Part shown: positions 14 through 25,727 of the stretch, one piece after another
Layout: every line of letters starts with the position of its first letter
Numbering within the stretch: the first letter of the stretch is position 1
NCBI RefSeq assembly: GCF_023062595.1
Contig: NZ_JALLAN010000001.1
Span: forward strand, 248,001 to 312,000
Direction of reading: 5' to 3'
DNA length: 64,000 nt
DNA from: Arthrobacter rhizosphaerae
GTDB taxonomy: Bacteria > Actinomycetota > Actinomycetes > Actinomycetales > Micrococcaceae
Notes under the pieces: generated by a model
What the model was told of the DNA's origin: nothing
Database searches by the model: none
The model's input: the letters and a program-made list of their open reading frames with translations, nothing else
Program-made: the position numbers and the translations under genes

Positions 14-3000
14 TCAGTTCCCCATTCCGTAGTCGTCGTCACTCTTCTCGGGTTCGGCCTCAAAGTTCGGCGTCCAGACCGGCCGACGTGCTCCGACGCC
101 GACGGCGTGCACCGAGCGCCGTCCCGCGCCACGTGCCCTGGCAGCGCCGTCTACATCCGGGGCGATTACGTCGCGCTTGACCACCGCGGCGTCCACTGCG
201 ATCTCAGCACTCTCCATACCGTTCAGGCCGTCCAGCCCGAGGATCTCGAACGCGTCCAGCTGCTGGGCCGCCGCCGAGCGCACTCGTCGGGTCCCTGCTG
301 AGGCGAACTGTTCGTTCTTCGCTCCGTCGAAAATGCCTTCGCGATCCTTCGCTGCCTGCAACAGCGCCGCAAAGTCGCCACCGTAAGCCATGCGGTCCAT
401 CACGGTGCCGGCCAGAGACGGGTCCTCCTCCAGATTGCGCACAAGCCCCGTCTTCGGGTCTTCCAAGGCACGTGCGACGCGCGCCACGTGGTCAGGATTG
501 ACCGTGACGTTGAACCCGTCCTTGGCTTCATAGAACTCCGTGAACTGGGCCTCCCACTCCTCGGCCGTTGCCTGGACAGCCTCACCGTCGGAGAACTCGG
601 GCCGCCACTGGCCGGGACCGACATGCTCGAGCTTGCGGCCCCTCCAGAGATCACGCCCCGGGCCCTGAAGCATCTCGTACTTGTGCCGGGCTTCTGCTGC
701 ATCGTGTTTGGCCTGCAGGATCGACTGGGTCACCGGGTAGGTAACCTCCAGCACCGCTTTGAGGTCCGCGCCTCGCAGGGCACGCACGGCCCTCTGCGAG
801 AAAGAGCCACCGAGTCCCGTTCCGTGGGCCTTGATTGCCGTGGCAAACATACTCGCCTCCTGGTCCTCCTGGGTGATGCCGGGCCTGCCCTGGTCGTCGC
901 CGAGGTTGCGGGCATAATCAGCCAGCTTCTTCTCGCTGCCCTTCGCGCCGGTCTCAACGCAGACCTGGCGCACGCTCTGCAGGTGCGCCTCACGGTCGGA
1001 GAACGTCAACGCCGCACCGAATTCACCGCGCTGGGCAGAGCGATAGATACCGCTGAGCTCGTCGGTGAGTGTCTCCCGACCGGTGCCAACCTCGTAGGAG
1101 TCGTCGACGAAACGCAGCCGGTTCGCCTCCGCCAAGGAGCTGTCCAGATCCTCCACCAGGTTCGGGTTCTTCGACAGTGCGACCTGCGTGTCCAGAGAAA
1201 CCTGCATCGCCAAGGGGTGTGAGCCGTCAGGCTTCACCACTCCGGTGTCCAGCAGGTTCGAGGGCACCGAAAGCTTCTCAAGAGCCTCAGCCTTCGCTGC
1301 CTCGCTGTGCAGCTTCACCACTGCGACCGCATCGCCGTCGAAGTCGCCGTCGAAGCACTGATCCATGACCGGGTTGATCGCCGCGCCCGTGAGCCGGTCG
1401 TCGATGGCTACCCGCATGTAGCGCACGCCGGCGTCGCGCAGGACCGGATCGCGCCAAACCAGAGCGTGGTCGCCCTCGGTCAGACCCAGCTGCCCGGCCT
1501 TGACCGAGCTCAGGGCGATCTGGTCGATGTCGAGCCGCGGGTCCGCGGTCCAGACCATTGTCGCCGAGTCGGACAGGCGCGAGGACATCAAACCTGTCTT
1601 GAAGATGTTGTTCTTTCCGGTGAGTACCCGGGTCTGCACATCAGTAGTGATCGCTTCGAAGGAACGCTGGGCCCGGGACACGGACTCACTCATACCCCGC
1701 CGCACTTCCGCGCGCTTCTCCGAGGACAAGCCCTGACCGTCCAGCTGCTCGGCCATAAACCGGTAGCGGCAGGCCTCGACAAAAACGTCCTGGTAGTTGC
1801 GGGTGTAATCGTGTGTGACCGACGTGCCGTCGTCGAATTCCTGCCCGCTGCGCAGGTGCGAGGAAAGCACAGGCAGCTTCCAGGAGGACGCACTGACGGT
1901 CTCGGTCTGCTCGCCGGTCGGATACGCCAGCGGAAACGGGATCTCCATGTCGCCGCCGCGGTCACCGATCAGGTCGCCAAAGGACTTACGCATCGCTGTT
2001 GTGTTCAGCCCCGGGAGCGCGCCCTCACTGCGTGGCTGAGTGCGCATCAACTCCGGCATCGGGATGAGACGGCGCTCGGGACGCTCGTCGATGCTGTCGG
2101 ACTGACCGACGACGCGCAAGGAGCCGTCGGCTTCCATGTCCAGGCCCGCGACAAACAGGTACTCGCGCAGGTTCGACTCGGCCCCGGAGTTGTGACCGTA
2201 GAACTCACGCATGATCGCAGGGCAGTCCTGGGACTGCAGCGCCCACGCCAGCTGCGAAGAAGCCTTGCGGCCCTTACCGGCCCGCACCTGCTCGTCATCG
2301 TAAATTTTGGTCTTCTCGTCGACGGCCATGTGGGTGACGACAAAGCGCATCTGGCCGATACCGTCTGCCACGTTGTTCTCGGGAACAAACGGTGCCACCA
2401 GATCCTGGGTCTCACCCGCCATCAATTCACGGGCCGACCCTGCGTTGCGACGCGAGATCAACGAAAACGGACTCATCACAACGTCCATCTCGGGGTTGGC
2501 GCGGAACCAGTTCAGTTCTTCCTCGATGCCGTGGGACCTGGCTTCGTCCAGCGGCATGTCCCGATCCACAACCAGCGAAATTACACCCTTGTTGCCGTGC
2601 AGGTCCGAGATCTTGTCGCCCACGACGAGGTCACGCGGCTGGCCACCGGCCCCGCGGATACGATGGCGCTCGGCGAACTCACGGCTCACCACGATCGGGT
2701 CGTCGGCCGTCCAGCCGCCGAAGGTCATCAGAGCGGTACCCGTGGGCTTGGTGACCTCAGAGGACTGCATGATTGTCGAGGCCGTCATCTGCTGGCGGTC
2801 GAAGGGGTCGTAGCGCAGCGTCTCCAGCTCCGGCCGGCTCATCAGCGGAGCACGGGACCCGGTCACAGTCTCCGGGTTGCCAGGCTCGATGGTGCCGTCC
2901 GGGCGCACCGCTGCATCCTCGGTGAGATAGCGCACGATGCCCTGGTTGGTTGCGCCACCGGTCATCACCGGGTCGAAGTACCCGCCCGGGGCTGCAACGT

Positions 3001-5566
3001 GGTTGCGATCGGTTCCCGTCAGGACCGTCATGTTCCGCCCGCCGGTGAGCTTCCAGGCGTCGAAGACGTTGTCGTCGGCCGGGTCGGTACGGTCCCGCTC
3101 GGCGCGGTACTCGGCGTAGATCGTCGAGCCCTGCTTGATCTCGTTGGAATAGCGCACGCGCTTCGCCTCGGTCTCCAGGATCGAAGCCGTCCACTCATCC
3201 AGACGTGCCGTGATCTCGCCGGTGGACTCATCGAGCTCGTACGTCGTGGCCTGCTCGACAAAGTCGACCGGGTGCTTGGTGCCGTAAAGCTGCGAGTACA
3301 CGGCGTTGAGCGAGGCCGGCTCTCCGGTCCGGCTGCGTCCGGAGACGAGGTCGCCCGCGATCTGGTACTGGATGCGCTCGTGCATAAGCTGCTCGTAGCC
3401 GCGCAAGACAGTGCGCTCTTCAACTGACTTAGGAGCTTCGCCAGGGATCTGTGCCTTGATGCGCGCTTCGTAGCCGGGGATGATCAGCGCGTTCTCGCCG
3501 CTGGCGAACTTCGTGACGATCTCGCCATATTCGCCGACGTCGAAGACCTGACCGATCTCACCGGAGACCGGGGTCGTCTTGCCGTCGCGTCGCAGCTTCT
3601 CGCCAGTCCAGCTGATCACACCCTGCTCGTCGACCAGGATCTCAGCCGGCGTCGCGGCATTGCGCACCAGGCTCTGGCGCACGGTATCGCCAATGCGGCG
3701 CATGAACTCCGAGGAGTGCTCGGTGATCGGAATGGCGGTGGCCGCATTGAAACCGACGATCCGGTCTTTGAACCGGGTCGCCTGAAAACTGGTACCCATC
3801 AACTCGTCAGGGGAGACCCCGCAACGACGCAGAGCCGAGGCAAGGTTGTCGAGATTCGACCACTGACCTGTGGGGCTGGTCATGTACTTGGCCACCCGGG
3901 ACGGATCGAAGCGTTGCTCCATCCATTCGCCGTCGATGTAATGGGGTTCGGCGTCCCATGTCCCAACCAGCTCGAAGGGAACGTCGTCAGCGTGCCCGCG
4001 GACCTTTTCCGCAGGCGAGCCGCCGTAGACGAGGTTACCCAGATCGGGCACGTCCCCGGCCTGCAGCTCGCCGATCTCGTCCAGGCGCTCCTGGTACATC
4101 TCCTCGGTCGCGCCCGGGCGCAGCAGTTCGCTGCGGGCCCCGATAAGCACGTCCCAGTAAGAGCGCTGGATCGCCGCAACCTCAGGGTCCGATGCGTACT
4201 CGGGCGGCTCGATCTCATCGACCACACCCTCGGTGCGCTGCAGCTCGGACCCGGCACGAAGAATCAATTCTTCAACACCCAAAGCAGCACGCAGATTCTC
4301 CCGCGCGGTTTCGACGGCCTCACGTCCATAGATTTCTGCGGGCTCGGCGTCGACAAAGAAGGTCGGCAGGGAGCGGTTCTTGGCGTCGCGGCGAAGCATG
4401 ATCTTGGACCCGGGACGTGGGGCATTCTCACCGGGGACCACGTAGTCGGCCACTACGAACATGCTCTCGCGGTCGACATGGTAGCTGTCGGGCACATCCA
4501 CAAGTGTGCGGCCGCGGCCGCGTTCGGGATGACTGGTGCCGACCTCGCCGACAGCCACTCCAGGGAGATCCTCACGTTCAACGCGCTGCCCCTGGGCGAA
4601 GCGCAGCAACCGCACTGCCTCCTCCGGAGTGGGCGAAGGAACCGCCATGCCGCCCGGAACCCGGTGGTTGGTGCTGTAACGCAGGACAGTGCCGTTGTCG
4701 TAGATGCGTGCGCCGGCGTACTCCTCCTGCCGTGTGTCGGTAAGACGGATCTCCATGCCGGTCCCGGCGATCTTGGCCTTGATCTGGCCCGGCTCACGGT
4801 CGCGCAACACCTCGTAGGACACGCCCTGCGACTTCAGCTCTTCGAGCAGAGCAGCCGAGCGGGTCACGGCACGCTGGGACATGAAACGGTTGCGGTCAAT
4901 GCGGCCGGTCTGGGGGTCGCGGCCGCCGTCAATGACCCACTCCCGGACCTGGTCGTATTCCTGGCGGCTCATCTTGTCCATGAGCGCCGTAAGCCCTGCT
5001 GCGTCATCATTGGTCATGGCCCGCCCGGCTTCGTAAGGCTTTCCTTCGGCGTCAACGCGCCAGAGCGTCATGTTCCCGCGCCGGGGATCAGCCAGAGTCT
5101 CGACCTCGCCGTCGGCGTTCTTCGTGATCGTTTCATCAGGGATGTACAACAGCTCGGTCCCGGCCCGCTTCACGGTCGCCCGCTCGGACCACGCCGGGTC
5201 GTAGGGGCTGATCGGCAGCCGCGCCGAACGAGGATCCGCCTGCGCGCCGACGCCCGTGGCGCGGGTAAAGTCCCGCTGCAGCGACTGATAGCGCTCGTTC
5301 TTGGGGGAGTGGTCGCCGAACTGCAGCTCATAATCCGGGACCTTCTCCGAGAAAGCCGCGTCGATCGCGCTCAGGCAGTCGGTGACACCCAACCGGGGGT
5401 CAGCCAACGCGGTTCCGCGCTGCCCGAGAATCTGGTCGACTCGTGCGCGGATAGCTTTGGCCTGGGAGATCGGAATGATCTCTCCGCTCTGATCCCTTCC
5501 CTGTTCGACTGCCTTATAGAACACGTACTCGTAGAAGTACCTGCGCAGGCCATGTGCCTTTTTCAT
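14..5566 (-). CDS. Single-chain RNA polymerase with fused beta and beta-prime catalytic cores
   Basis: Predicted DNA-dependent RNA polymerase of 1,850 residues. Residues 920-938 (DPFDRQQMTASTIMQSSEV) and 943-966 resemble the beta fork and the beta segment containing FED..VSE. GDKISDLHGNKGVISL (983-998) keeps both catalytic lysines of the beta double-psi barrel (K985, K993) and is followed by DMP and an SRRNAG stretch, as in beta. WRDPVL (from 1371) leads into CFDGDFDGDAVAV, with metal-binding Asp1408, Asp1410 and Asp1412 of the beta-prime barrel. ETGAKGSEKKLADYARNLG (1538-1556) matches the bridge helix, and about 1581-1616 could be the trigger loop. The first ~900 residues are not recognised. 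AGGAGG lies 10 bases before the start. It is much shorter than rpoB plus rpoC and longer than the YonO type. The polymerase call is firm; activity and target promoters are inferred. Confidence 0.9.
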   Translation of the reverse strand: MKKAHGLRRYFYEYVFYKAVEQGRDQSGEIIPISQAKAIRARVDQILGQRGTALADPRLGVTDCLSAIDAAFSEKVPDYELQFGDHSPKNERYQSLQRDFTRATGVGAQADPRSARLPISPYDPAWSERATVKRAGTELLYIPDETITKNADGEVETLADPRRGNMTLWRVDAEGKPYEAGRAMTNDDAAGLTALMDKMSRQEYDQVREWVIDGGRDPQTGRIDRNRFMSQRAVTRSAALLEELKSQGVSYEVLRDREPGQIKAKIAGTGMEIRLTDTRQEEYAGARIYDNGTVLRYSTNHRVPGGMAVPSPTPEEAVRLLRFAQGQRVEREDLPGVAVGEVGTSHPERGRGRTLVDVPDSYHVDRESMFVVADYVVPGENAPRPGSKIMLRRDAKNRSLPTFFVDAEPAEIYGREAVETARENLRAALGVEELILRAGSELQRTEGVVDEIEPPEYASDPEVAAIQRSYWDVLIGARSELLRPGATEEMYQERLDEIGELQAGDVPDLGNLVYGGSPAEKVRGHADDVPFELVGTWDAEPHYIDGEWMEQRFDPSRVAKYMTSPTGQWSNLDNLASALRRCGVSPDELMGTSFQATRFKDRIVGFNAATAIPITEHSSEFMRRIGDTVRQSLVRNAATPAEILVDEQGVISWTGEKLRRDGKTTPVSGEIGQVFDVGEYGEIVTKFASGENALIIPGYEARIKAQIPGEAPKSVEERTVLRGYEQLMHERIQYQIAGDLVSGRSRTGEPASLNAVYSQLYGTKHPVDFVEQATTYELDESTGEITARLDEWTASILETEAKRVRYSNEIKQGSTIYAEYRAERDRTDPADDNVFDAWKLTGGRNMTVLTGTDRNHVAAPGGYFDPVMTGGATNQGIVRYLTEDAAVRPDGTIEPGNPETVTGSRAPLMSRPELETLRYDPFDRQQMTASTIMQSSEVTKPTGTALMTFGGWTADDPIVVSREFAERHRIRGAGGQPRDLVVGDKISDLHGNKGVISLVVDRDMPLDEARSHGIEEELNWFRANPEMDVVMSPFSLISRRNAGSARELMAGETQDLVAPFVPENNVADGIGQMRFVVTHMAVDEKTKIYDDEQVRAGKGRKASSQLAWALQSQDCPAIMREFYGHNSGAESNLREYLFVAGLDMEADGSLRVVGQSDSIDERPERRLIPMPELMRTQPRSEGALPGLNTTAMRKSFGDLIGDRGGDMEIPFPLAYPTGEQTETVSASSWKLPVLSSHLRSGQEFDDGTSVTHDYTRNYQDVFVEACRYRFMAEQLDGQGLSSEKRAEVRRGMSESVSRAQRSFEAITTDVQTRVLTGKNNIFKTGLMSSRLSDSATMVWTADPRLDIDQIALSSVKAGQLGLTEGDHALVWRDPVLRDAGVRYMRVAIDDRLTGAAINPVMDQCFDGDFDGDAVAVVKLHSEAAKAEALEKLSVPSNLLDTGVVKPDGSHPLAMQVSLDTQVALSKNPNLVEDLDSSLAEANRLRFVDDSYEVGTGRETLTDELSGIYRSAQRGEFGAALTFSDREAHLQSVRQVCVETGAKGSEKKLADYARNLGDDQGRPGITQEDQEASMFATAIKAHGTGLGGSFSQRAVRALRGADLKAVLEVTYPVTQSILQAKHDAAEARHKYEMLQGPGRDLWRGRKLEHVGPGQWRPEFSDGEAVQATAEEWEAQFTEFYEAKDGFNVTVNPDHVARVARALEDPKTGLVRNLEEDPSLAGTVMDRMAYGGDFAALLQAAKDREGIFDGAKNEQFASAGTRRVRSAAAQQLDAFEILGLDGLNGMESAEIAVDAAVVKRDVIAPDVDGAARARGAGRRSVHAVGVGARRPVWTPNFEAEPEKSDDDYGMGN

Positions 5567-5613
5567 CTCTTCTCAGCCTCCTGTGGATGCTCGGGTGACA
5601 TAACTATGTATAG

Positions 5614-5658
5614 ATCATACCCAGACCATTCGATAGAAAGCGAGTAATGAGTCGATAG
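5614..5658 (-). promoter_or_regulatory. Putative promoter/operator of the RNA polymerase gene, two TCGATAG sites
   Basis: The + strand has TCGATAG at 5630-5636 and 5652-5658, exactly 22 bases apart. Read on the minus strand these are CTATCGA direct repeats. TATGAT, a plausible -10 box, follows at 5619-5614, about 50 bases before the start codon. No TTGACA-like -35 box is present. The same paired motif stands before the gene starting at 11933. Direct repeats two helical turns apart suit a DNA-binding protein or a non-standard promoter; which of these is inference. Confidence 0.55.
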
Positions 5659-9884: not shown

Positions 9885-11933
9885 TCAGCCGCCCATCCCC
9901 GCGCCGCCGATGAAGCCTGCGAGGCCGCCAAGCAAGGGCAGCGCCACGATGAGAGCGACGATCATCTTGTTGTAGCGACCCTGGATCTCCGAGGCCCGCG
10001 TGAGCTCGCTGGCGTACGATTCCTTATCGGCCAGCAGCTCTTCCATCCGCGCCTCATAACGACGCTTGACCGAGTCCTCCACGGACGCCATCTGCTGGAG
10101 CAGATCCGTGTTGCGCTTGGTAGCCGAGTCAGTTTTCTCCTTCTCCAGCTCCAGGCTGTGCTGCCACTCCGAATCGCGCCCCTGCATCTGGGTGATCGCG
10201 TCCTTGCGGCTGCGGTCGAGCTCGTCCTCCATCCGGCGGATGCGATCAGCATGCTCGCTGCGGATCGACTCCAGAAGCGCTTCCTGCTCGCGTCGGACCA
10301 CGCCGATCTCGTCGGTGGTCCGCTGGTGCTCGGCCAGAGCCTCGGCCTGGACGATGTCCGCCTTGCGGTTGTCATCGACGATCCGTTGGATCTCGTCCTT
10401 CCACTGGCCCAGGCGCGCCTCCTCGGCCTCGAGGTACGCCCTCTGCTTCTCAGCGAGCACCTCGAAGATCCGCGTAGTGCCGATCTGCATCTTCAAGGCT
10501 GCGTCGGAGCGGCGCACGCGCAGGATCTCCTGCTGGTCGTGCGAGTAAGCGTTCTCGATGACCCGCTCGATCTCGGCTACAGCGTCGCCCTGCTCGCGTT
10601 CCATACGGGAACGGTTGCGCTCCTTGTACTGGATCTCAGCCTGGATCGCCGCCTGCTCGGCGAGCTTCTTGGCCTGGGTCTCGTGATCCTTGAGGATCTC
10701 AGCCTTGCGGGCACGGATCCGCTGCTCCTTCTCGGACTCGCGCTCCCGGTGGGCCTCCTCGGTGCCGTCCTTGAGCGACTTGTAGCGCGATCCCGGGCGG
10801 TCAGTGGCCACCTCACGGATAACCTGTTCGACGTGTGCCGACATCAGATTCACGTACAAGGTACGCAGCTCGTCCTCATGCGCCCAGCGAAGCTGTGAAA
10901 GGTCGGCGTTGGCCTGCCGGTTGAGCTGAGCAACCTGGTCGCCGAGCCATTCGGTCGCGCCTTGAGGCACGTCGATTTGCACGACCGGTGCGCCGATGGC
11001 AAAGGTCGCGTTGAACTCGGAAAGATCAACCTGGAGATCCAGATCCTCAGAAAGGAAGCGGCGGGCAATGACTTCGCGAACCTGTTCCTGGTCCTCCAGC
11101 AGCACCACATCCTCGGCGCTCTGATCAAGGGCTCCCGATTCCTCGTCCAATTCATCGAGGCCACCGGACCCGTCAAACTCCGGCTCGGCTTCGACGGCAA
11201 ACGACTTGGGATCGACCTCAGTGCCGAAATTGATCGGCTCATCGTCGAACAGAGGTTCGTCAGCACCCGCAGAGTCGAAGATCGGCTCATCGCCAGTATC
11301 AGAGTTGCCGCCAGGGAGTTCGTCAAAAATGTCGTCGCCCCCGTCCTCCACCACCGCGACTGCCTCCGTATCGGTGGATGCACTTCCGGCCGCGACCTCG
11401 TCGAACGCAACTCCGCTGTGGTCCTTCCAGGCCTGCTCTCCAACGGCCTGCTCAAGGCTCATCGCACCAGCGGCGACCTCCTGTGCCTGTTTGAATGTCG
11501 CCTCGTTCACGAGGTCCACCAACAGTTCGCCGCTGGGCTTCTGCCACACGACTGCCCAGGAGTAGTCGGCACCGGTGAAGAGTGAGTACTCCTCCATCCG
11601 GGAAAGCGTCTCCGCGTTCGGGATGATGCCAAAAACTTCTTCACCGAGCATCTCGGCGGTAGCCACGGTCTTGATCTGGTCTGAATCGATGAGCTCGATG
11701 ATCGACCCTTTGGCCTCGTCACGGCCATGCCGCTTGCTCAGCCCTCCGATGTTCTCCGCGGCAAGTACGAGCATGACCCATGCCGTACCGCTGGGGAAGA
11801 CGAACTTCGCGTTCGACCGCAGCAGCTCTACCGCCGCCGGGATCGCCGTCTCCCTGACCACGGAGGACAGCAGCTCGTCAGGCTTCTTCTTCCGATCCTT
11901 GTTCCGGCTTCCAGCCGTGCCCAGAATGCCCAT
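9885..11933 (-). CDS. Large acidic coiled-coil protein with C-terminal membrane anchor
   Basis: A 682-residue protein I do not recognise. It has a basic N-terminus (NKDRKKKP) and a globular region to about 180. An acidic low-complexity linker (about 180-300) repeats DEPIFD and DEPLFD. A long charged helical, coiled-coil region covers about 390-650. One hydrophobic segment at the extreme C-terminus (MIVALIVALPLLGGLAGFIGG) suggests a tail-anchored protein facing the cytoplasm. A longer in-frame start 34 codons upstream would run through the TCGATAG motif, so ATG 11933, preceded by GAAGGGAT, is chosen. It has its own motif-bearing upstream region and lies directly before the coupling protein, suggesting a scaffold at the transfer machine or for its effectors. 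That role is inference. Confidence 0.75.
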   Translation of the reverse strand: MGILGTAGSRNKDRKKKPDELLSSVVRETAIPAAVELLRSNAKFVFPSGTAWVMLVLAAENIGGLSKRHGRDEAKGSIIELIDSDQIKTVATAEMLGEEVFGIIPNAETLSRMEEYSLFTGADYSWAVVWQKPSGELLVDLVNEATFKQAQEVAAGAMSLEQAVGEQAWKDHSGVAFDEVAAGSASTDTEAVAVVEDGGDDIFDELPGGNSDTGDEPIFDSAGADEPLFDDEPINFGTEVDPKSFAVEAEPEFDGSGGLDELDEESGALDQSAEDVVLLEDQEQVREVIARRFLSEDLDLQVDLSEFNATFAIGAPVVQIDVPQGATEWLGDQVAQLNRQANADLSQLRWAHEDELRTLYVNLMSAHVEQVIREVATDRPGSRYKSLKDGTEEAHRERESEKEQRIRARKAEILKDHETQAKKLAEQAAIQAEIQYKERNRSRMEREQGDAVAEIERVIENAYSHDQQEILRVRRSDAALKMQIGTTRIFEVLAEKQRAYLEAEEARLGQWKDEIQRIVDDNRKADIVQAEALAEHQRTTDEIGVVRREQEALLESIRSEHADRIRRMEDELDRSRKDAITQMQGRDSEWQHSLELEKEKTDSATKRNTDLLQQMASVEDSVKRRYEARMEELLADKESYASELTRASEIQGRYNKMIVALIVALPLLGGLAGFIGGAGMGG

Positions 11934-11982
11934 TGGTGTCGATCCCTTCGATGATGAAACGCAGTTCGCCTGGTATATGAGT

Positions 11983-12029
11983 ATCCTATCGCTTTCCAGT
12001 CGATAGGAGCAAGAATGATGAGTCGATAG
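11983..12029 (-). promoter_or_regulatory. Putative promoter/operator with two TCGATAG sites
   Basis: TCGATAG occurs at 12000-12006 and 12023-12029 (23 bases apart), and an inverted CTATCG at 11986-11991 faces the first copy. On the minus strand TAGGAT at 11988-11983 is a possible -10 box, about 50 bases before ATG 11933. The layout is nearly the same as upstream of the RNA polymerase gene, including the flanking CTATCGACTCAT. Confidence 0.55.
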
Positions 12030-12059
12030 AATCAAGACTCGTGTAAGAAAACCACCCGG

Positions 12060-13826
12060 TCAGCGCAATACACTGACCTCAATGTGGGCGTCCGAGGTAA
12101 GCATGTCCTTGTTGTCGCTGACCAATTCGCCGACCACGTCGATCCGGATCCTCCGCTCCGAGGGGTGCTCATTGATAAATGCCGCCACGCCTGTGGTGAC
12201 TTCATCGGTCATTTTCGCCACCGCCGTACGCGCACCGCCGGCATTGGAGTCGGTATCGGCCTTGTCCTCGATCAGGTACTGAAGCACCCTTTCGTCGATG
12301 TCCACACGCACGTTGTGTTTGACCAGTACCTCCTGCACCATGGAGCGCAGCTTGTTGCGCACAATCTTTCGTAGCGTGTCCTCCGACAGCGGCTGGAAGG
12401 GAACAATGGCGTCGATGCGGCCCAGCAGTTCCGGAGGAAACCGATTGTCGGCCGAGGTCTCCGAGATCGAGCGCCGGATGAGCTTGTCGTATTTCAACAG
12501 CTGCTCGCCCGAGCCGGTGTCATCAGCGGCGTACCTCGCGATGGTCTCGTAGATCTCCGATCCGGCGTTCGTGGTGAGCACAATGTATGTATTCAGGAAG
12601 CTGACCTCGCGGTTGTTGTCATCAGAGAGCCGGCCGTCGTCGAGCACCTGGAGCAACAGGCGCGTGACCATCGCCGAGGCCTTCTCGATCTCGTCGAAGA
12701 GCAGCACGGCGTGGGAAAGATCCCAGACCCGCTTCGTCAGCTCAGAACGGAACAGATCCATAGAGGAATCCTGCGCAAACTCGGACATATCGAAGCGGAT
12801 CAGGTGCCGCTGGTCGTCTCCGAAGAGCAGCCGTGCCAGCTGCTTGGTCAACTCGGTCTTACCCACGCCCGTAGACCCAGTCAGGAGCATGGAGGCTTCC
12901 GGGCGGCCCTTGTCGTTCAGATCGGCCACCGACAACTGCAGCCGTCGGGCGACCGCCCGCGTCGCCAGATCCTGGCTGTACACCCGGGCGTCCAACTGCG
13001 TCTTGATCTTTGCGCCGTCGACCTTGAAGGCTACGTTGACGCCCAGGGACTCCTGGAGCACGTCCGAGAGCAGGGCGCGGTCCATCGCCCGCCCAGTCAG
13101 ACGGTGCCAGCCGACCATGCTGTCCAGTACGAGGATCGATTTGCGGGGCTGTGAGCTCGCCGGCATGTAGCGCTGTGTGTATTCGTAGATCTGACGGTAG
13201 ATGTGATCGTCGTAGAACTGGTCAGCCACCTCGTAGCGCTCCGCCATGCCCTGAAGGATCTTGATCGTCGTCACCTGGTCCGGAGGCGTCAGGTTGATGC
13301 GCTGCAGGCGCTCGACCAGGGGCTGGTTCGGCGCGATGTGCTTGTGAAATTCGACGTACGTCGTCGCCGCGATGATCCGGATGCCGCGTGTACCCGAAGC
13401 GGCCAGCACCGGCTTGATCGCCTCCACGGCTGCGGTGGAGAGTTGGATGATCTGGTGGAATTCGTCGATGAAGAGCACCAGCTCCTGCTTCTCGTCCTTG
13501 ACGAAGCGCTCGGCCTCGTCGAAGAATCCCTTGAGCATCGAGGCCATGAGATCACCGTCGCCCGCCTCGGAAACCATTCGGGCCGGATCGGCTTCAAGAT
13601 ATAGGCGCTCTGCGTCGGCCAGCATGGTCGCCTGGACCAGTGCCGTCTTACCCGTACCGGCCTCCGCCAGCAGGAGTGCATTGTTCAGCTCCGGACGGCT
13701 CATGGACGCCATCAGCTGCATCACCTCATGCTCCCGGCCGACAATCTCTCGCTCGGCCTTCTTCAGGGGATCCGACAGCTTGGACAGGAGGGGGTAGCTG
13801 TCATTCAGACTGGCATCGTTGAACAT
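12060..13826 (-). CDS. ClpB/ClpA-like double AAA+ ATPase
   Basis: A 588-residue class I Clp/Hsp100-type unfoldase with two ATPase modules: Walker A AEAGTGKT (54-61) with Walker B LVLFIDEF (117-123), and GSTGVGKTE (about 317-325) with LLFDEIEKAS (about 372-381). The N-terminal double Clp repeat is absent, and the middle domain seems reduced, so it is shorter than host ClpB (about 850). Such proteins remodel complexes by threading polypeptides. An element-encoded copy beside conjugation and polymerase genes could remodel the transfer apparatus or the polymerase; that is inference. ATG 13826 was chosen because the longer reading would run through the upstream motif. It forms its own transcription unit. 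Confidence 0.85.
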   Translation of the reverse strand: MFNDASLNDSYPLLSKLSDPLKKAEREIVGREHEVMQLMASMSRPELNNALLLAEAGTGKTALVQATMLADAERLYLEADPARMVSEAGDGDLMASMLKGFFDEAERFVKDEKQELVLFIDEFHQIIQLSTAAVEAIKPVLAASGTRGIRIIAATTYVEFHKHIAPNQPLVERLQRINLTPPDQVTTIKILQGMAERYEVADQFYDDHIYRQIYEYTQRYMPASSQPRKSILVLDSMVGWHRLTGRAMDRALLSDVLQESLGVNVAFKVDGAKIKTQLDARVYSQDLATRAVARRLQLSVADLNDKGRPEASMLLTGSTGVGKTELTKQLARLLFGDDQRHLIRFDMSEFAQDSSMDLFRSELTKRVWDLSHAVLLFDEIEKASAMVTRLLLQVLDDGRLSDDNNREVSFLNTYIVLTTNAGSEIYETIARYAADDTGSGEQLLKYDKLIRRSISETSADNRFPPELLGRIDAIVPFQPLSEDTLRKIVRNKLRSMVQEVLVKHNVRVDIDERVLQYLIEDKADTDSNAGGARTAVAKMTDEVTTGVAAFINEHPSERRIRIDVVGELVSDNKDMLTSDAHIEVSVLR

Positions 13827-13870
13827 GCTGTGGAAGACCTCTCGACAAGACTCTGATTCACCTGATAGAT

Positions 13871-13904
13871 CAGTCGAAAGTCTATCATGAATGGCATTCG
13901 ATAG
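13871..13904 (-). promoter_or_regulatory. Putative promoter, TCGA-N11-GATAGA motif
   Basis: Read on the minus strand: TCGA (13901-13898), exactly 11 bases, then GATAGACTT (from 13886). This gives TAGACT as a TANNNT-type -10 box about 55 bases before ATG 13826. A second TCGA lies at 13874-13877. The same TCGA-N11-GATAGA arrangement precedes the genes starting at 21246 and 23030. Confidence 0.6.
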
Positions 13905-13923
13905 ATGATGGATAGAACATGGA

Positions 13924-13953
13924 GAGGCCCCCGGACTTGTATCCGGAGGCCTC
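13924..13953 (-). terminator. Hairpin after the 88-residue gene
   Basis: A 12-base GC-rich stem with one mismatch (13924-13935 with 13942-13953) and a 6-base loop lies downstream of the minus-strand gene ending at 13983 and before the ClpB-like gene's control region. Confidence 0.6.
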
Positions 13954-13982
13954 CTCAATGCCCAGTGCCCTGGCCGATTCCG

Positions 13983-14249: not shown

Positions 14250-14266
14250 GTCACCCTCCTCTTTGC

Positions 14267-14956: not shown

Positions 14957-14992
14957 GTTCTTTCACTCCTTTCAATTGGTCCCGGGATGCAA

Positions 14993-15058: not shown

Positions 15059-15595
15059 TCAGCCGACGGCGGGCTCCTCGACTTCAACGGCCTGTTCGAC
15101 CGACTGTTCAGGGGCCGCGGTCTGCGCTTCCTTGGTTGCCGACTGGGCATCCTTCGCCGCCTTCATCGAGGCGAACTGGGTGTCCAGAGTGTTGGCGTCG
15201 ACCTTGAAGTCAGAGGCTTCGACGGACTTGGTGTTGACCACCAGACCGGTGCCGCGTGATGCTGGCATCACGTTGCCCTTGAAGCCGTAGAGGGTACCGA
15301 CGGCATTGCCGTCCTTATCCTTGATCGGCTCCTTGTTCGGACCGGCGGCCTTGACGATTTCCTCCAGCTGGCCGACTGAGTACGGTGCGCTGTTGTTGAA
15401 TCCCGGCTTGCCGTCGGGACGCTGGATGCGCTCCGACTTCAAGTGCAGGTTGCTCTGCTCGGGGCCGCGTGCGTCGCGGGCATCAACCTGGACGTCCGCG
15501 TAATGCGACTTGCCGTCCTTGGTCTTGCCGTTGTCGTAGACCTTCGCGATGAGGTTGACCCCGGTCATCGCGCCCTTGCCCTTGAGAAGTGCCAT
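15059..15595 (-). CDS. Unrecognised 178-residue protein, own transcription unit
   Basis: A 178-residue soluble protein with no family I can name. Residues 1-130 look like a compact beta-rich domain (MTGVNLIAKVYDNGKTKDG, then a GTLYGFKGNV stretch). The last 40 residues are Ala/Glu/Gln-rich, acidic and likely disordered. AAGGA lies 8 bases before the ATG. It is monocistronic, with its own palindromic control region upstream and the strongest terminator in the element downstream. This suggests a highly expressed or separately controlled product, such as a single-strand-binding or regulatory protein; these are guesses from context only. Confidence 0.7.
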   Translation of the reverse strand: MALLKGKGAMTGVNLIAKVYDNGKTKDGKSHYADVQVDARDARGPEQSNLHLKSERIQRPDGKPGFNNSAPYSVGQLEEIVKAAGPNKEPIKDKDGNAVGTLYGFKGNVMPASRGTGLVVNTKSVEASDFKVDANTLDTQFASMKAAKDAQSATKEAQTAAPEQSVEQAVEVEEPAVG

Positions 15596-15740: not shown

Positions 15741-18014
15741 TTACTCGTGTTGCATGTCCTCGGACAGGTCAATCTCTTCCGAGTCAGTGATACGAGCCGC
15801 ATCAGGACTGGTCACTGCCGCGTCGATCCGCTCCTGGACGCGCACCACAAGCCCTGCGTCCAGAGAAGCTGTCCTCGACCTGCGCAGCCGCGCTACCTGC
15901 TCCCGTTCTTCGCGCAGCTCGGCGAGCCTCGAGCGCAACACCGGATTCCCGCTGCCGTGCTCGGGTGTCAGGCTCCGGGAAAGGCGGGTCATGGATGCGA
16001 TGTCATCGACCGGAAGGTCAACAATTGCCTCGGACTGACCCGACTGGTCCAGGTACTCCATCGCTGCCAGCAGCAGCCTGCGGCGCTGCATGGCTGCGGC
16101 GGAAAAGTCCTGGCGTGCACGTTGACCAATTTCGACATCGGTGACGAAGTCATAGCCGAGATGGTGCAGGTCCAGAGCTTTGACCTCGTCGAAAGGGTGC
16201 GGAGTCCCCGGCTCTATGGAGAGCTCCGCGGTGACGCCGGACTCCTTGGCCTCTGCCTGACCTGCCGCACCTGCAACGAGCACCAGACCCGAGTCGGCGA
16301 GATCCGACCGAAGCTCATTGACCCGCTCGTTGTAGATCTCCTTCATCGCTGCGATCCGGCCATCAAGCACAACCCGGCCGGCCTTGCCCTCAGTCAAATG
16401 CCGGCCACCAGGTTGGTCATAAATTTCCCTGCCCAGGCGCTCGGCCTCCTCCGAATCCTTCATGCGCTGCAGCGAGGCATCCTGGCGGAGGGCCATGAGG
16501 GAGAGCAGGCGCTGGCCATAGTCGGCAACGTGCTGCTGCCGCTCGTACCACTGGCCGACGTCGCCGATAAACGGCAGGAAATGCTGGTACTTGCTCATCA
16601 CCCGTCGGTGGTAGTCCTCCTCGAATCGGTAGAAGTCATAGAGCGGCCGTGAGTCTTCATCAGCCACATCGGCCTTCTCGGCCCGCTCCCACTGGCGGAC
16701 CAGGTCGCGATAGACACCGGCTTTGGTCTTGTGGTGCTGCAGGCGGGAGGCGTAGCTGCGCAGCCGGAAGCCGAAGGTCACCAGATCGTCCTCGCCTCCA
16801 TGCTCGTCCCCGGCCTGTTCCTGGCGTTCCGCGGCGAGCACTGCCATCTGTGCGTAATCCATACCCATGACCTCGAGCATCGGAGTGCGCACGCGCAATT
16901 CCTCCGGTGGCAGGGCGCGCAGCATCTGATAAACGCCGTTGACAGCCCGCTCGGTGATCCGATCCCTGCCCGCGTCGATCAAGCGCTGCCACTGATCCTT
17001 GGACAGACCTTCGGACCCGCGGCGCTGGTTGGCGTAGTCCACGACTTTCTCCATCGCCTCCGGCAGCGGCGACCCTGGACGTTCCAGCTGCTCGGCAACC
17101 AGCTCGGAGACGAGTTGGTTTGCCTTGCGCATGCGCAGATCATTGGAGCCGGCCCGCCACAACGAACGATCAGCCGGCAGACAGGCCAGCAGAAACTGGG
17201 GGAGCGACTCAGCCCGCATGCGGTCGTGCGCCCACCGCTTGATATACGTGGTGACGTTCCTGCGTTCGTAGCCCACAGCGCTGGAGAGGTGGGCCACCGC
17301 TTGCTTCTCGTCAAGCCAGCCGTCCATACCGCGGCGCAGCCTCGACTTATGCCGGTCCAACAGCTTGCCGCGCTGCGTGCCGTCCTTGGCCAGGTTTCCG
17401 TGCCCGGCATCGACCATGGCGAGATGACAGTGCACGTGCTCGGTGTCGACCTGGATCACGCCCACATAGCGCAGGTCATCAAATCCGCTGGTGCCCGAGC
17501 TCATCCGCTCCAAACCGTGCATGATCGCCATGCGCAACTTCATCTGATCGATATGGCCCCGGTAGTCCCCGCGGCCCTCGCAGTGAAAGTCCTCGCTGAC
17601 GATCCCTCGTCTCTTCAAATAATCCTCGTCAAAGGAAAGCACCGTCTTGAGGACGGTCTTGCCGCTCTCGAAATGCCGCTGAATGTCCTTGGACGCCGCA
17701 CGCAGTTGTTCATCCGAGAGTGAAACGGAGCCATAGCCGAACGCGACACCCCCGTCACCCTGTGCCTGGCGCATCGCCGTCTTAGTGTCGAGCCGACTGG
17801 TCCCCGCACGCTCGACGGCGCTCTCGCGCGCCATATAGCGCAGGATGAAGTCATCGGTGCGCAGCCGCTGGATCGGTGCGAGCGACTCAGTGGCCTGCTC
17901 GCGGGCCATGTACCGGGTGACATAGTCGCCGGGTGTCCCACCCCGGGAGCCCTTACCGCCCGGCAGCGGTACCGAATACTCGTTGACCAGAACGATGTCC
18001 TGTTTCAGTCCCAT
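15741..18014 (-). CDS. Conjugative relaxase (HUH type)
   Basis: A 757-residue relaxase that would nick oriT and stay attached to the transferred strand. IQVDTEHVHCHLAMVDAG has the histidine triad H193, H195 and H197 of HUH/MOB relaxases. Tyr31, Tyr35 and Tyr60 in the N-terminal region are candidate nucleophiles (two RYMARE repeats at about 34-39 and 59-64). The remaining ~500 residues are helical and unassigned. ATG 18014 is preferred over the ATG four codons earlier because GAGG lies at a proper distance from it. It follows the 341-residue gene across a strong hairpin. I could not place oriT; family assignment within MOB is open. Confidence 0.85.
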   Translation of the reverse strand: MGLKQDIVLVNEYSVPLPGGKGSRGGTPGDYVTRYMAREQATESLAPIQRLRTDDFILRYMARESAVERAGTSRLDTKTAMRQAQGDGGVAFGYGSVSLSDEQLRAASKDIQRHFESGKTVLKTVLSFDEDYLKRRGIVSEDFHCEGRGDYRGHIDQMKLRMAIMHGLERMSSGTSGFDDLRYVGVIQVDTEHVHCHLAMVDAGHGNLAKDGTQRGKLLDRHKSRLRRGMDGWLDEKQAVAHLSSAVGYERRNVTTYIKRWAHDRMRAESLPQFLLACLPADRSLWRAGSNDLRMRKANQLVSELVAEQLERPGSPLPEAMEKVVDYANQRRGSEGLSKDQWQRLIDAGRDRITERAVNGVYQMLRALPPEELRVRTPMLEVMGMDYAQMAVLAAERQEQAGDEHGGEDDLVTFGFRLRSYASRLQHHKTKAGVYRDLVRQWERAEKADVADEDSRPLYDFYRFEEDYHRRVMSKYQHFLPFIGDVGQWYERQQHVADYGQRLLSLMALRQDASLQRMKDSEEAERLGREIYDQPGGRHLTEGKAGRVVLDGRIAAMKEIYNERVNELRSDLADSGLVLVAGAAGQAEAKESGVTAELSIEPGTPHPFDEVKALDLHHLGYDFVTDVEIGQRARQDFSAAAMQRRRLLLAAMEYLDQSGQSEAIVDLPVDDIASMTRLSRSLTPEHGSGNPVLRSRLAELREEREQVARLRRSRTASLDAGLVVRVQERIDAAVTSPDAARITDSEEIDLSEDMQHE

Positions 18015-18042
18015 AGCACCTCGCATCCTTCATCTCGGGAAC

Positions 18043-21246: not shown

Positions 21247-21287
21247 TGACCCCTCAACTCACTGTTCCACTCGGATACCAGTAAAAC

Positions 21288-21311
21288 TCTATCAAGAATA
21301 CGAGTCGATAG
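21288..21311 (-). promoter_or_regulatory. Putative promoter, TCGA-N11-GATAGA motif
   Basis: On the minus strand CTATCGACT leads to GATAGAGTT with exactly 11 bases between TCGA and GATAGA. TAGAGT would be the -10 box, about 40 bases before ATG 21246. It would drive the 21246-to-18111 gene cluster independently of the two genes upstream. Confidence 0.6.
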
Positions 21312-23030: not shown

Positions 23031-23075
23031 CTTGCCCGTCCCTTCACTCGATTTGTCCTCACATACGACTCCAAG

Positions 23076-23096
23076 TCTATCTCTAACGGGAGTCGA
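23076..23096 (-). promoter_or_regulatory. Putative promoter, TCGA-N11-GATAGA motif
   Basis: On the minus strand GACTCGACTC, then 11 bases after TCGA, GATAGACTTGG, giving TAGACT as a candidate -10 box about 46 bases before GTG 23030. No TTGACA-like -35 box is evident. Confidence 0.58.
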
Positions 23097-23210: not shown

Positions 23211-25727
23211 CTACGCGGCGACCTCCGACGCCGGCAGGGGGCCAGTCTCGCTGATCAGATCAGCGACATCGACGAATACCCAGCCCTCGGCCTTCATTCG
23301 TGCCGCGCTGTCCACGCGCACACGACCCATATGCGCGCAGTAACCGGCTTCGCCAATGATGACCTGGTCACCGTTGACGCCCAGCACCACCAGTGTGTGA
23401 CCGGCGGAGCCGGTGCCAGGTCCCGAGCCGACGGAGTAAGCCGTCGGCGTGTCCGAAACCTGCTTGCCTGTCATTGACGCGATCGAGTGCGCAGTCTGGA
23501 TCCCGTCGCCTGCGGGGTACTGCTGGAACGAGGTGTACTTGTTCACGAAGTAGACCGAGAACGACACGCAGTTCATCGCATGGTTATCACCACACGATCC
23601 CGGGCCACCGCCGTTGCCGTACCTCTCGTCAAGGAACTTGTCGCCTTCCTGGTTGTACAGCTCGATCAGCTGCTGCGCCTGCTCCTCGTTCATACCGCCG
23701 TCGACCAGGTCGCCGCCGGCTACGGTCTCGTTGTTCTCGCAGTTGCCGAGGATCGTATTGACGCCTCCACCGATGGTGGCGATGATGCCGCCCACAATGT
23801 CCTCGACGCCGCCGACGATCGAACCATCGACCTCCCAACCGCTCATCTTGCCGTACCACATTTCGGCATCCACGACACGCTCGGCCATCATCGAAGCGTT
23901 GTCCGCAGAACGTTCCCACTTGTCATGGAAGTGCCGGGCCGCAGCCCCGGGTGAGCCCAGCGAAGTCTCGATCATGCCCTTGAATACATCCACGTCACCG
24001 GGATTGTCGCCCTCGACCATGAACGCCAGCTGTGCCTCGATCGTGTACCAGTCCAGACCCTTGGACTGCGCGTAGTTCAGGAGCATCGGGGTACGGCCGT
24101 TCGACCACTGGCCCAGGCCGATGCCGCCGTGCGACTGGCCGGGAATGTGGGTGAACTCGTTGTCCCAGGCTTCCTGCTTGCGCTGGCCGATCCGGTAGGG
24201 CTCGTTGTAGATACCCTCGACGCTGGTCGGGTCGATGCCCGACTCCTGCGACCAGTTGCCCAGGATGCCTGCGATGTTCTCGTCGGACATGCCCCAGCTC
24301 TTCAATACCGAGTACACGGCCTTGGCATTCGCCTCAGTGCTGGCCGGGACTTCCGCGCCAGGACCGTTGTTGCCGACTCTCACGACACAGCTTGCCGAAC
24401 CGCGGTCGCTGCTGCCGTCGAGGCCGGCTTGGTCGAGAATGCCAGTGACCACCGTGCTCAGCACGGCCACCGCAGTGATAGACGCGATGATGCCGGAGGT
24501 AGCGGTAGCCACGGGCGCGACCGTTGCCGTGACCGCCACCCCAAACACAGCACCCGCACCTTTGGCCGCGAGCCCTCCGATTGCCACGAACGGTGCTGCG
24601 ATCGCCTTGCCCATGACCTTGGCGACGCCGACGATGAAGCCCCATACGAGATTGGCCGCGTTCGCGGCCATCGCCATCATCGCGAAGAACATGGTCTTCA
24701 GCCACTTCAACAGGGCCATGAGCATGACCAGGCCCATGGCCGGGGGAGCGGCTGCTGCAGCGCCACCGATAGCGACACCCTTGGCGGTCTTGGAGACCAG
24801 CTCCCCGTCCTTCTTGGCGGCCCGTTCGTAGCCCGTTCCGCCAGCGCCGAGTCGCTTGTCGGCAGGCTCTGCGTCAGGCCCTCCACCGGTGATTTTGGAC
24901 GCACCATCGACGACGTCCTTGCCACCCTCCATACCAACGTTCTTGGCTGCGCCGATGGCAGCCCCGGGCAGAGCTCCGATACCTCCTGCCGCGGCTCCGG
25001 CCTGTGCACCGGCCACCGCACCCGAGGCAGCAGCCCCTGCGTAACGGCCTGCATTACTTCGGGCCTTACTGTCGCCCTTTCCCTCGATCGCCTTTTGGGC
25101 TGCTCCTCCTGCAGCGTTCGCAGCGACACCATCCAAGCTCTTGCCCGCCTTCTTGGCGGTGTCCATCGCACCCTTGGCCTGCCCGGCCTTGTCCGCTGCC
25201 TCGCTCGCCTTGCCAGCAGTATCCGCTGTGCTCCCCGCGGCCTGCGCGGCCGTCGAAGTCTTTGAGGAGGAACCGGTGCCGCTCGTCGAGCCGTCCTGGT
25301 GTGTTGTCGAACCTGTCCGGTTGCTGCTCGCCGGTCCGGATCCCGGACCAGCAGGACCAGTTCCCCCAGCTGCGCCCGCTGCTCCGGGAAGGGACTTGGT
25401 CCCGCGCGCCCCGGGCGTGCCCTGGTTACCGCCTTCAGGACCGTACGCGCCGTTTTTCGCATCTCTGGTCGCCCCGGCCCCAACCTTCTTCGGCCCGGCT
25501 GCAGCTGCACCAGGGGCTCCTGTGCGAGTGCCGGGAACGGCTCCTGAGGCTGCAGCCCCGGCAGAGCCGCCTGCGTTGCTGCGGCCCTGGCTCTGACCCC
25601 CACGCCGTGCGCGCTGAGCATCATTCCCCGCAGTTTTCCCGACCTTGTGTCCGGCTCCCTGACTCTGGTCGGGCGACCCTCCGGGCCGAGTCGAGGCATC
25701 CGGCTTCTCAGGCTTGTCAGTGGCCAT
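23211..25727 (-). CDS. Membrane-anchored lysozyme-CHAP cell-wall hydrolase (VirB1-like)
   Basis: An 838-residue peptidoglycan-degrading protein likely to open the wall for the transfer channel. Residues 1-300 are Gly/Ala/Lys/Thr-rich low-complexity. About 305-445 is hydrophobic with several membrane segments (LVMLMALLKWLKTMFF, then NLVWGFIVGVAKV). About 475-650 is a phage-lysozyme-like domain: ILGNWSQESGIDP with a catalytic Glu, and GGIGLGQW. The C-terminal ~120 residues are CHAP-like, with MNCVSF supplying Cys and GHTLVV supplying His. AAGGA lies 7 bases before the ATG. The fusion of a VirB6-like hydrophobic region to two wall-cleaving domains is unusual; the VirB6 comparison is inference. 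Confidence 0.85.
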   Translation of the reverse strand: MATDKPEKPDASTRPGGSPDQSQGAGHKVGKTAGNDAQRARRGGQSQGRSNAGGSAGAAASGAVPGTRTGAPGAAAAGPKKVGAGATRDAKNGAYGPEGGNQGTPGARGTKSLPGAAGAAGGTGPAGPGSGPASSNRTGSTTHQDGSTSGTGSSSKTSTAAQAAGSTADTAGKASEAADKAGQAKGAMDTAKKAGKSLDGVAANAAGGAAQKAIEGKGDSKARSNAGRYAGAAASGAVAGAQAGAAAGGIGALPGAAIGAAKNVGMEGGKDVVDGASKITGGGPDAEPADKRLGAGGTGYERAAKKDGELVSKTAKGVAIGGAAAAAPPAMGLVMLMALLKWLKTMFFAMMAMAANAANLVWGFIVGVAKVMGKAIAAPFVAIGGLAAKGAGAVFGVAVTATVAPVATATSGIIASITAVAVLSTVVTGILDQAGLDGSSDRGSASCVVRVGNNGPGAEVPASTEANAKAVYSVLKSWGMSDENIAGILGNWSQESGIDPTSVEGIYNEPYRIGQRKQEAWDNEFTHIPGQSHGGIGLGQWSNGRTPMLLNYAQSKGLDWYTIEAQLAFMVEGDNPGDVDVFKGMIETSLGSPGAAARHFHDKWERSADNASMMAERVVDAEMWYGKMSGWEVDGSIVGGVEDIVGGIIATIGGGVNTILGNCENNETVAGGDLVDGGMNEEQAQQLIELYNQEGDKFLDERYGNGGGPGSCGDNHAMNCVSFSVYFVNKYTSFQQYPAGDGIQTAHSIASMTGKQVSDTPTAYSVGSGPGTGSAGHTLVVLGVNGDQVIIGEAGYCAHMGRVRVDSAARMKAEGWVFVDVADLISETGPLPASEVAA

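Follow-up and report, generated by a model that had tools for sequence, protein, structure and literature searches.

Results

The predicted polymerase gene and its signatures

The 64,000-nucleotide stretch of the Arthrobacter rhizosphaerae genome analysed here (the window; contig NZ_JALLAN010000001.1, positions 248,001 to 312,000) carries a conjugative element whose operon runs through genes for an integrase, a lysozyme-type protein, a MobL relaxase, an AAA ATPase, a protein of 716 amino acids (aa) and a coupling protein before it reaches the gene of interest, which encodes a predicted RNA polymerase (RNAP) with beta- and beta-prime-type parts fused in one chain. This gene is a single intact, ATG-started frame of 1850 codons (14..5566, minus strand), and an alignment of the gaps upstream of the gene places AGGAGG a short distance before its ATG. 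The original prediction, made from the sequence alone, had proposed just such a polymerase of a conjugative element, and the profile matches, motif order, invariant residues, substitution rates and transfer-gene linkage described below bear it out. The gene is under purifying selection, with ratios of nonsynonymous to synonymous substitution (dN/dS) of 0.10-0.24 in five pairs, the widest dS being 1.4.

Within the chain the beta-type barrel (GDK..HGNK) comes first and the beta-prime-type barrel (DFDGD) second. The motif of the former, GDKISDLHGNKG, contains K985 and K993, and DFDGD occupies residues 1408-1412. Across an alignment of 13 family members, whose identity to the window protein ranges from 88 to 22% (effective number of sequences, Neff, 2.6), the residues of G-D-K, H-G-N-K and D-F-D-G-D are invariant in all 13 rows, confirming that both double-psi-barrel signatures stand intact in one chain, as had been claimed; a 14th member, L053, reads GDKISDFGGNKG, with both lysines kept and the HGNK histidine not. 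The invariant positions comprise G983-D984-K985, H990-G-N-K993 and S1038-R1039 in the beta part; R1372, P1374, N1398-P1399 and D1408-F-D-G-D1412 in the beta-prime part; and G1540, K1542-G1543, K1579, T1583, G1587, Q1591, T1613, Q1614, L1617, K1620 and H1621 in the C-terminal part.

Under the names and roles generally given to RNAP motifs and residues, the order along the chain is the FED-like motif, GDK..HGNK, VMSPFSLISRRNAGSARE, the switch-2-like segment, R-x-P, DFDGD, TGAKGS, the place of the bridge helix and YPVTQSILQAKH, that is, beta followed by beta-prime. The flanking segments stand in the order that the original prediction expected of them; its FED-like motif has diverged in the window copy, and its bridge helix rests on position and spacing. 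From D956 of the FED-like motif to the start of GDK is 27 residues, which leaves no flap-sized insert, and in L053 an insert of roughly 100 residues, judged by length, lies between the same two motifs. The motif TQ-x2-L-x3-H, proposed as the N-terminal helix of the trigger loop, is found in 13 of 13 rows and is preceded by P in 12 of them. This segment reads YPVTQSILQAKH in the window, TEPLTQATLKLKH in Staphylococcus and YNSTQAPLQLKH in Lactococcus, its counterparts being GEPGTQLTMRTFH in cellular rpoC and EPVTQMQMRTFH in a fused phage enzyme; when the 165-residue segment of the window protein was shuffled 100,000 times, TQ..[LM]...H arose in 108 cases.

Profile and structure comparisons

Pfam RNA_pol_Rpb2_6 matches residues 976-1056 above its cut-off (E=1.6e-7, 31.2 bits, cut-off 23.4), and RNA_pol_Rpb1_2 matches residues 1362-1430 at 0.4 bits under its own (E=2.7e-5, 24.9 bits, cut-off 25.3). 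The NCBIfam rpoB and rpoA1/rpoC models match far under their cut-offs (best E=1.7e-4), and the PHROGs family of RNAP beta matches at E=4.7e-5. A single-sequence search of PDB chains placed 8h2n_A first (E=6e-4), recorded as 'Tape tail measure protein' and in our reading the P23-45 RNAP, with RNAP subunits at E 0.13-0.87. Of 156 matches of the family hidden Markov model among PDB sequences, the best 60 include the RPB1 subunit of Pol II (E=1.5e-14, 214 profile columns aligned) as well as largest subunits from bacteria, plastids and archaea, whose E values lie between roughly 1e-12 and 1e-10.

Aligned by hhalign, the 13-row family matched cellular rpoB (10 sequences) with 96.5% probability (E=9e-10), cellular rpoC (10 sequences) with 97.0% (E=9e-11, 200 columns) and a two-sequence alignment of fused phage beta-beta-prime enzymes (L055 and L064) with 99.6% (E=4e-25), the last over 437 columns spanning both barrels; reversed controls of the rpoB, rpoC and fused alignments gave 0.2-0.3%. 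Taken in blocks, residues 860-1060 match rpoB (97.4%) and not rpoC, and residues 1200-1460 match rpoC (98.2%) and not rpoB. Block 1520-1640 gives no significant match: in rpoC it falls on SGARGS (E=0.09), and in the fused enzyme on SGAKSD, the equivalent motif (E=0.17).

AlphaFold models were made of the core (residues 600-1725, 12-sequence alignment) and of the N-terminus (residues 1-870, 11-sequence alignment). With the core model, which is of low confidence, RNAP largest subunits fill Foldseek ranks 1-31 with probabilities up to 0.96; Foldseek scores residues too, so these rows are not independent of sequence. VIA-align of Foldseek's candidates returned RNAP chains in all 50 rows shown, led by Pol V (Z 9.2, root-mean-square deviation (rmsd) 3.6 over 111 residues), and Z 8 was reached by 4 of 996.

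The N-terminus of about 900 residues had been described as unassigned, which holds for residues 1 to about 600; residues about 618-762 were placed weakly by VIA-align on beta-subunit chains in 25 of the 50 rows listed for the N-terminal model (Z 3.8-5.5). Porphobilinogen deaminase rows match the same stretch equally well (Z up to 5.5), and we take the beta-subunit reading as the likelier because of the place in the chain. Foldseek gave no match with this model (best E 0.43). Residues 227-327 (4586-4888) weakly match the fold of the T4 MotA DNA-binding domain, listed twice by VIA-align (rmsd 2.2 for 81 residues in one row, 2.7 for 88 in the other) at Z 5.2, a value which the tool calls common; no MotA family appeared in a Pfam scan of seven family members at E up to 10, in which HMMER filters drop most weak matches. 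We take the modelled fold as a hint of a possible MotA-like DNA-binding domain in the polymerase N-terminal region.

Distribution of the family

Relatives of the polymerase are rare, and lie on actinobacterial elements and plasmids and on Staphylococcus and Lactococcus plasmids, at identities from 99% down to 22%. One genome per species was scanned by pattern in 84,980 species, a search that reaches close relatives only; it found 13 loci, all actinobacterial (Arthrobacter, Pseudarthrobacter, Promicromonospora, Kribbella and Brevibacterium); the copy in Pseudarthrobacter sp. GA104 is 99% identical to the window polymerase. Five of 395 genomes of the taxonomic family and one of 296 of the class carry it, the window's genome being counted in both. 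Thirteen of 72,556 plasmid records give a match with E no higher than 0.01: five from Staphylococcus, five from Lactococcus and one each from Streptomyces, Gordonia and Rhodococcus. Among 50,697 phage records there are six matches, each confined to 4-8% of the protein (E 3e-4 to 0.07); one is annotated as RNAP beta, three as hypothetical and two not at all. At least 25 viral-contig loci match, L053 over residues 577-1760 (31%) and the others over shorter stretches among the matches listed; the frames of L053, L055, L059, L064 and L073 were read. Three further viral-contig scans yielded no new relatives in two cases and L053 alone, once more, in the third.

Other records came to light beside these. 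A search of the phylum gave 361 of 396 genomes, which we rejected as not being family members; besides G000, the best score was 58 bits, at cellular rpoC-type frames. In Arthrobacter sp. Hiyo8 (L013) the copy is broken, by decay or by sequencing errors: its polymerase occupies two frames (9998-11509 and 11293-15597), and the best coupling-protein match covers 30%. On Gordonia pGKT2 (L019:17953-23826) the open frame extends upstream of the annotated polymerase start at 19366 by as much as about 470 residues, some of which align with the N-terminus of the family. Twelve Clostridioides difficile plasmid records (H33-H44, 97-150 kb) have a short RNAP-beta-type match, 11 of them under genes annotated as RNAP subunit beta. 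The viral contigs L055, L064 and L073 encode fused beta-beta-prime polymerases of about 2000-2100 residues.

The conjugation module

The relaxase, coupling-protein and cell-wall-hydrolase neighbours named by the original prediction were found as MobL, TraG/VirD4-type and lysozyme/CHAP proteins, the correction being that the strand is minus (Table 1). After the polymerase, as read at locus L015, come genes for a 584-aa protein, a 121-aa protein, an HU-like protein and an ATP-dependent DNA ligase. The 584-aa protein lies directly after the polymerase gene (L015:18192-19946, minus strand) and is found in 15 of 19 loci; without Pfam or PHROG match, it is a candidate partner of the polymerase. Over the same 19 loci the coupling protein occurs in 18, against 16 for the AAA ATPase, 15 for the 716-aa protein and 14 for HU; absences weigh little in these counts, since several of the loci nearly duplicate one another (L003-L006, L009-L010) and the flanking sequence is limited. 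One Staphylococcus plasmid keeps the order AAA - coupling protein - RNAP, and another has the coupling protein followed by RNAP near the start of its record; on a Lactococcus plasmid the polymerase lies within a 2382-aa protein, with no coupling protein in the stretch seen. By Pfam, no sigma, alpha or primase family occurs in the 21 element frames scanned.

Distances between polymerases follow those between coupling proteins (r=0.985 over 11 elements, 0.864 over the eight closest; in neither case did any of 5000 permutations reach the observed value). Since the genes within an element have a common history, this shows co-transmission and not interaction. The comparison took 11 of 20 copies (the window and 19 loci), all with complete frames, leaving out close copies (L002, L004, L005, L006, L010), loci with an interrupted coupling gene (L012, L013), L021, where no coupling gene was seen, and L053, where 19% of the coupling protein is covered.

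Table 1. Features of the polymerase gene, its upstream sites and the surrounding module (window coordinates)
Feature	Position	Strand	Evidence or remark
Fused beta/beta-prime two-barrel RNA polymerase (predicted), 1850 aa	14..5566	minus	open reading frame, Pfam, 13-member alignment, profile matches
Proposed trigger-loop N-terminal helix TQ-x2-L-x3-H, residues 1606-1623	698..751	minus	motif spacing
Proposed bridge helix, residues 1570-1597	776..859	minus	position and spacing; K1579, T1583, G1587, Q1591 invariant in 13; not significant alone
TGAKGS, counterpart of beta-prime SGARGS, residues 1537-1546	929..958	minus	profile position right, E=0.09
Beta-prime switch-2-like segment, R1372-x-P1374, NP and DFDGD (1331-1345), residues 1325-1412	1331..1594	minus	alignment, profiles, motif table
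NPEMDVVMSPFSLISRRNAGSARE, residues 1024-1047, aligned with beta segment	2426..2497	minus	hhalign
Beta-type barrel GDKISDLHGNK, two lysines, residues 983-993	2588..2620	minus	Pfam, alignment, hhalign
FED-like motif, residues 946-962	2681..2731	minus	GGWTADDPIVVS in window, GGWNFEDGIVVS in Gordonia, GYTFEDGSVIS in Staphylococcus
Residues about 618-762, weak match to N-terminal part of beta	3281..3715	minus	VIA-align, 25 of 50 rows
N-terminal region, residues 1-600	3767..5566	minus	conservation between phyla mostly lower than in the core
Promoter-like or operator site GGTATGATCTATACATAGTTATGT, upstream of polymerase gene	5598..5621	minus	upstream alignment, matrix scan
TraG/VirD4-type coupling protein, 1404 aa	5717..9931	minus	profile match, locus comparison
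716-aa protein, conserved in module	9885..12035	minus	locus comparison
Two-AAA-domain (Clp-like) ATPase, conserved in module	12060..13958	minus	true start probably downstream of 13879
CGANTS-N8-GATAGAST site, 5' end of AAA ATPase frame	13879..13900	minus	pattern count
178-aa protein, conserved in module	15059..15595	minus	locus comparison
MobL relaxase	15741..18026	minus	E=1.7e-100
CGANTS-N8-GATAGAST site, upstream of 268-aa gene	21286..21307	minus	pattern count
CGANTS-N8-GATAGAST site, upstream of 327-aa gene	23074..23095	minus	pattern count
Cell-wall hydrolase, phage-type lysozyme and weak CHAP	23211..25727	minus	profile match; CHAP under cut-off
Tyrosine integrase	28543..29826	minus	profile match

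The double-AAA ATPase of the operon (12060-13958, minus) also matches PHROG 4871, a phage 'ATP-dependent protease' family (E=8.5e-96). Elsewhere the window holds a BREX set on the plus strand (34928-47792), with BrxA, BrxB, BrxC, PglX, PglZ and BrxL in a row; a GmrSD/Orf5-like restriction protein (50388-52289, minus) near it; and an unusually long tyrosine recombinase of 804 aa (61225-63639, minus) close to a serine recombinase (58546-60072, minus). To the left of the element at L015 (622-9223, plus), AAA, weakly VWA-like, double-AAA and UvrD-like helicase genes stand in a row, possibly a defence cluster. The search for tRNAs was negative both in the window and in L015-L017.

Promoter-like and operator-like sites

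A 24-nucleotide motif of the GGTATGATCTATACATAGTTATGT type, often a dyad, occurs in 7 of 18 loci scanned and there only at the polymerase gene, so that it is no element-wide promoter. Its matrix, trained on six typed sites, gives no match of at least 11 bits in L007, L009, L010, L012, L013 or L019, and in a few other loci only matches at chance level. A second pattern, CGANTS-N8-GATAGAST, occurs three times in the 5.02-Mb draft genome, all in this operon, and its reversed form not at all. This is a descriptive count: the GATAGA[CG]T box was selected by eye in intergenic regions of the window before it was counted, and the composite was read off the same sites. In nine elements the box numbers 12 sense against 0 antisense (2.6 expected per strand), being present in six and missing from L007, L009 and L011, and 205 kb of other DNA holds none (5.2 expected), both counts being post hoc. 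CGA lies exactly 14 nucleotides upstream of the box in 6 of 13 cases (12 elements), and a one-mismatch box with CGA 13-15 nucleotides upstream occurs 16 times sense, 4 times antisense and 16 times in non-element strands. The extended form GATAGASTNG is found 11 times genome-wide, one of them in the window (control 46), and 10-mers shared among the window's intergenic regions do not exceed shuffles (three regions at most, against two to three). Hairpin promoters of the N4 or Frpo kind were considered and rejected, since hairpin formation at 16 sites does not exceed that of shuffled sequences (mean z -0.39).

Upstream of the 178-aa gene (15596-15740) a perfect palindrome, ACCATTCGAATGGT, stands before AATGCTCTATAC and has the CGAATGG half-site in common with the region upstream of the polymerase gene; from its sequence it looks like a regulator's operator.

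Discussion

Our analysis points, on balance, to a single-chain two-barrel DNA-dependent RNAP that forms part of a conjugation module and transcribes genes of its element, an explanation that we consider rather probable as a whole. Its parts differ in strength. What the data show is homology, intact invariant residues, purifying selection and linkage to the coupling protein, and we have high confidence that the window protein is truly homologous to two-barrel polymerases and that its site is intact. That it makes RNA on DNA we likewise hold to be quite probable, and for a role in transcribing element genes the chances seem about even. The data fit an active, flapless, single-chain polymerase that would be a standing part of the transfer module.

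Activity, template (duplex element DNA or the incoming single strand), promoters and timing are what we infer. In the mechanism that we propose, the beta-type barrel would supply K985 and K993 and the beta-prime-type barrel the metal-holding triad D1408/D1410/D1412, with R1372, the proposed bridge helix and the proposed trigger helix (Q1614, L1617, H1621) surrounding the active site. Because a flap-sized insert is lacking and the 21 frames hold no sigma, alpha or primase family, the enzyme probably initiates alone or together with another protein of the element, for which the product of the next gene downstream is a candidate. Most likely it would transcribe element genes from element-specific promoters during transfer or establishment, and CGANTS-N8-GATAGAST may be the promoter in question or an operator beside a host -10 box.

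Several observations weigh against this reading. The window copy has WTADD where relatives have FED, its close group having diverged to ADD. The bridge-helix and trigger-helix assignments are tentative ones based on spacing, with profile matches (E 0.09-0.46) that are not significant, and block 1560-1640 falls on the trigger helix of the fused enzyme but on the wrong place in rpoC (both E=0.46). The fold with superposed barrels by which the original prediction proposed to check itself was not obtained: the predicted template-modelling score (pTM) is 0.33 for the core and 0.36 for the N-terminus, with mean local confidence (pLDDT) of 54 and 64.5, values that carry no weight either way. Foldseek's best E for the core is 3e-3, with none below 1e-3, and the RNAP rows listed have TM-scores of at most 0.13, while VIA-align's own guide calls a best Z of 7-8 typical without a true match; with models this poor and matches this weak, the barrels are not confirmed by structure. 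As for promoters, the one-mismatch box is not enriched (81 sense and 71 antisense occurrences in elements totalling 262 kb, as against 128 in non-element strands totalling 409 kb), and CGANTS-N8-GATAGAST, chosen after being seen, may equally be a repressor operator beside a host sigma-A -10 box; TAGACT fits what we take to be the sigma-A -10 pattern, TANNNT. The polymerase gene's own upstream site also looks like an operator beside a host -10 box. Finally, the enzyme activity of the window protein is itself a prediction from sequence.

Among other explanations, the one that survives best, though we think it unlikely, is a conjugation-coupled enzyme whose template is the single strand entering the recipient. 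Transferred together with the DNA, or synthesised at a very early stage, it would provide RNA primers or first transcripts on single-stranded DNA, replacing the transferred primases of IncP/IncI plasmids and host transcription of the Frpo type. Such an enzyme would suit a polymerase gene that adjoins the coupling protein in two phyla and element frames without a primase family, and parallels appear in portions of the literature, namely the transferred primases TraC1 and SogL and a virion RNAP as early-phase protein (PMC5512222), and host RNAP acting on single-strand Frpo promoters (PMC11541004). Against it stand the promoter-like sites, whose hairpins are no better than shuffles, and the case of YonO, a processive enzyme transcribing phage genes according to passages of PMC5467207. 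Improbable, in our judgement, is a two-barrel polymerase with another template or product, whether a DNA polymerase like PolD or an enzyme that copies RNA templates; sections of PMC7281927 and PMC7824862 describe both uses within the superfamily, but the best profile matches shown are to DNA-dependent RNAP subunits (RPB1 first among them), and the R-x-P, SGARGS-like and trigger-helix-like motifs are of RNAP type. A protein that no longer polymerises and serves as a structural part of the transfer complex or as a decoy of host RNAP could account for the divergence to ADD in the close group, but the Asp triad and both lysines are invariant in 13 aligned members of two phyla under purifying selection, making this very improbable. 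Chance motifs in a long frame, of which GC-rich DNA produces many, can be dismissed given homologues from 99% down to 22% identity, significant profile matches and dN/dS well below 1.

The favoured reading, a DNA-dependent RNAP of the module, places the protein among enzymes of a kind already known. The original prediction took YonO and killer-plasmid polymerases as the known comparators, which understates what is known; the diverged actinobacterial homologues that it mentioned are probably the NCgl1702 group, of which the description reportedly goes back to the survey of Iyer and Aravind in 2012. The window protein probably belongs with this group, and the two have in common that they are bacterial mobile-element RNAPs whose beta barrel lacks the sandwich-barrel hybrid motif (SBHM)/flap insert. 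P23-45 gp96 is, like the window protein, single-chain and element-borne, and its barrel matches the family profile (hhalign 94%, E=1e-7), while P23-45 gp64 gives 5% and crAss-like phi14:2 gp077, which we take to be gp66 of the literature, 0.1%, each as a single sequence and the last a weak test. The match of the family to the fused multisubunit-type phage enzyme is far better than to the phage single-chain enzymes, and by these alignments the family appears nearer to multisubunit-type polymerases, a weak comparison with one sequence per phage enzyme. The viral-contig enzymes L055 and L073 share with the window protein one chain and the same barrel order, L055 with L064 being its best profile match; unlike it, they have about 140 residues from FED to GDK (flap-sized) and full cellular motifs such as GEPVTQMQMRTFH. 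Cellular multisubunit RNAP has separate beta and beta-prime chains, a flap and separate alpha and sigma, whereas the window protein is single-chain and flapless, with none of the latter two in 21 frames. Two hallmarks of the two-barrel superfamily, the Asp triad (DFDGD, 13 of 13) and two basic beta-barrel residues (K985 and K993, 13 of 13), are present.

YonO of phage SPbeta, set beside the window protein by description, is likewise a single-chain, two-barrel enzyme of a mobile element with an Asp triad; passages of PMC5467207 give it about 100 kDa and no trigger-loop homology, whereas the window protein has 1850 aa, a trigger-helix-like motif assigned by spacing, and a place in a transfer operon. 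The N4-like virion RNAP offers a possible functional parallel as an early-phase mobile-element polymerase and no fold relation, the N4 enzyme having an RRM-type palm like T7 in the portion of PMC7824862 that treats it. In the literature searched we found no study of the function of this polymerase family or of its link with conjugation; the 2003 and 2012 surveys lie outside that coverage, and the link may be in print. The family itself seems uncharacterised.

Conjugative elements are generally thought to rely on host transcription. The retention of a polymerase gene beside DNA-transfer genes in very different bacteria suggests that some elements make their own RNA when moving or settling. In its boldest form, which we regard as doubtful, this would be a flapless polymerase of one chain that works without sigma or alpha and is ancestral to the transfer module of both Actinomycetota and Bacillota; it would read the compact, element-only promoter CGANTS-N8-GATAGAST through an N-terminal DNA-recognition domain and express transfer and establishment genes in any recipient, whatever its sigma factors. 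If the reading is right, the enzyme would offer a single-chain model of cellular RNAP, the role of mobile-element two-barrel polymerases would become directly testable with a genome-unique candidate promoter, and a polymerase of the element's own, kept beside the coupling protein in two phyla, would explain how such elements achieve host-independent expression.

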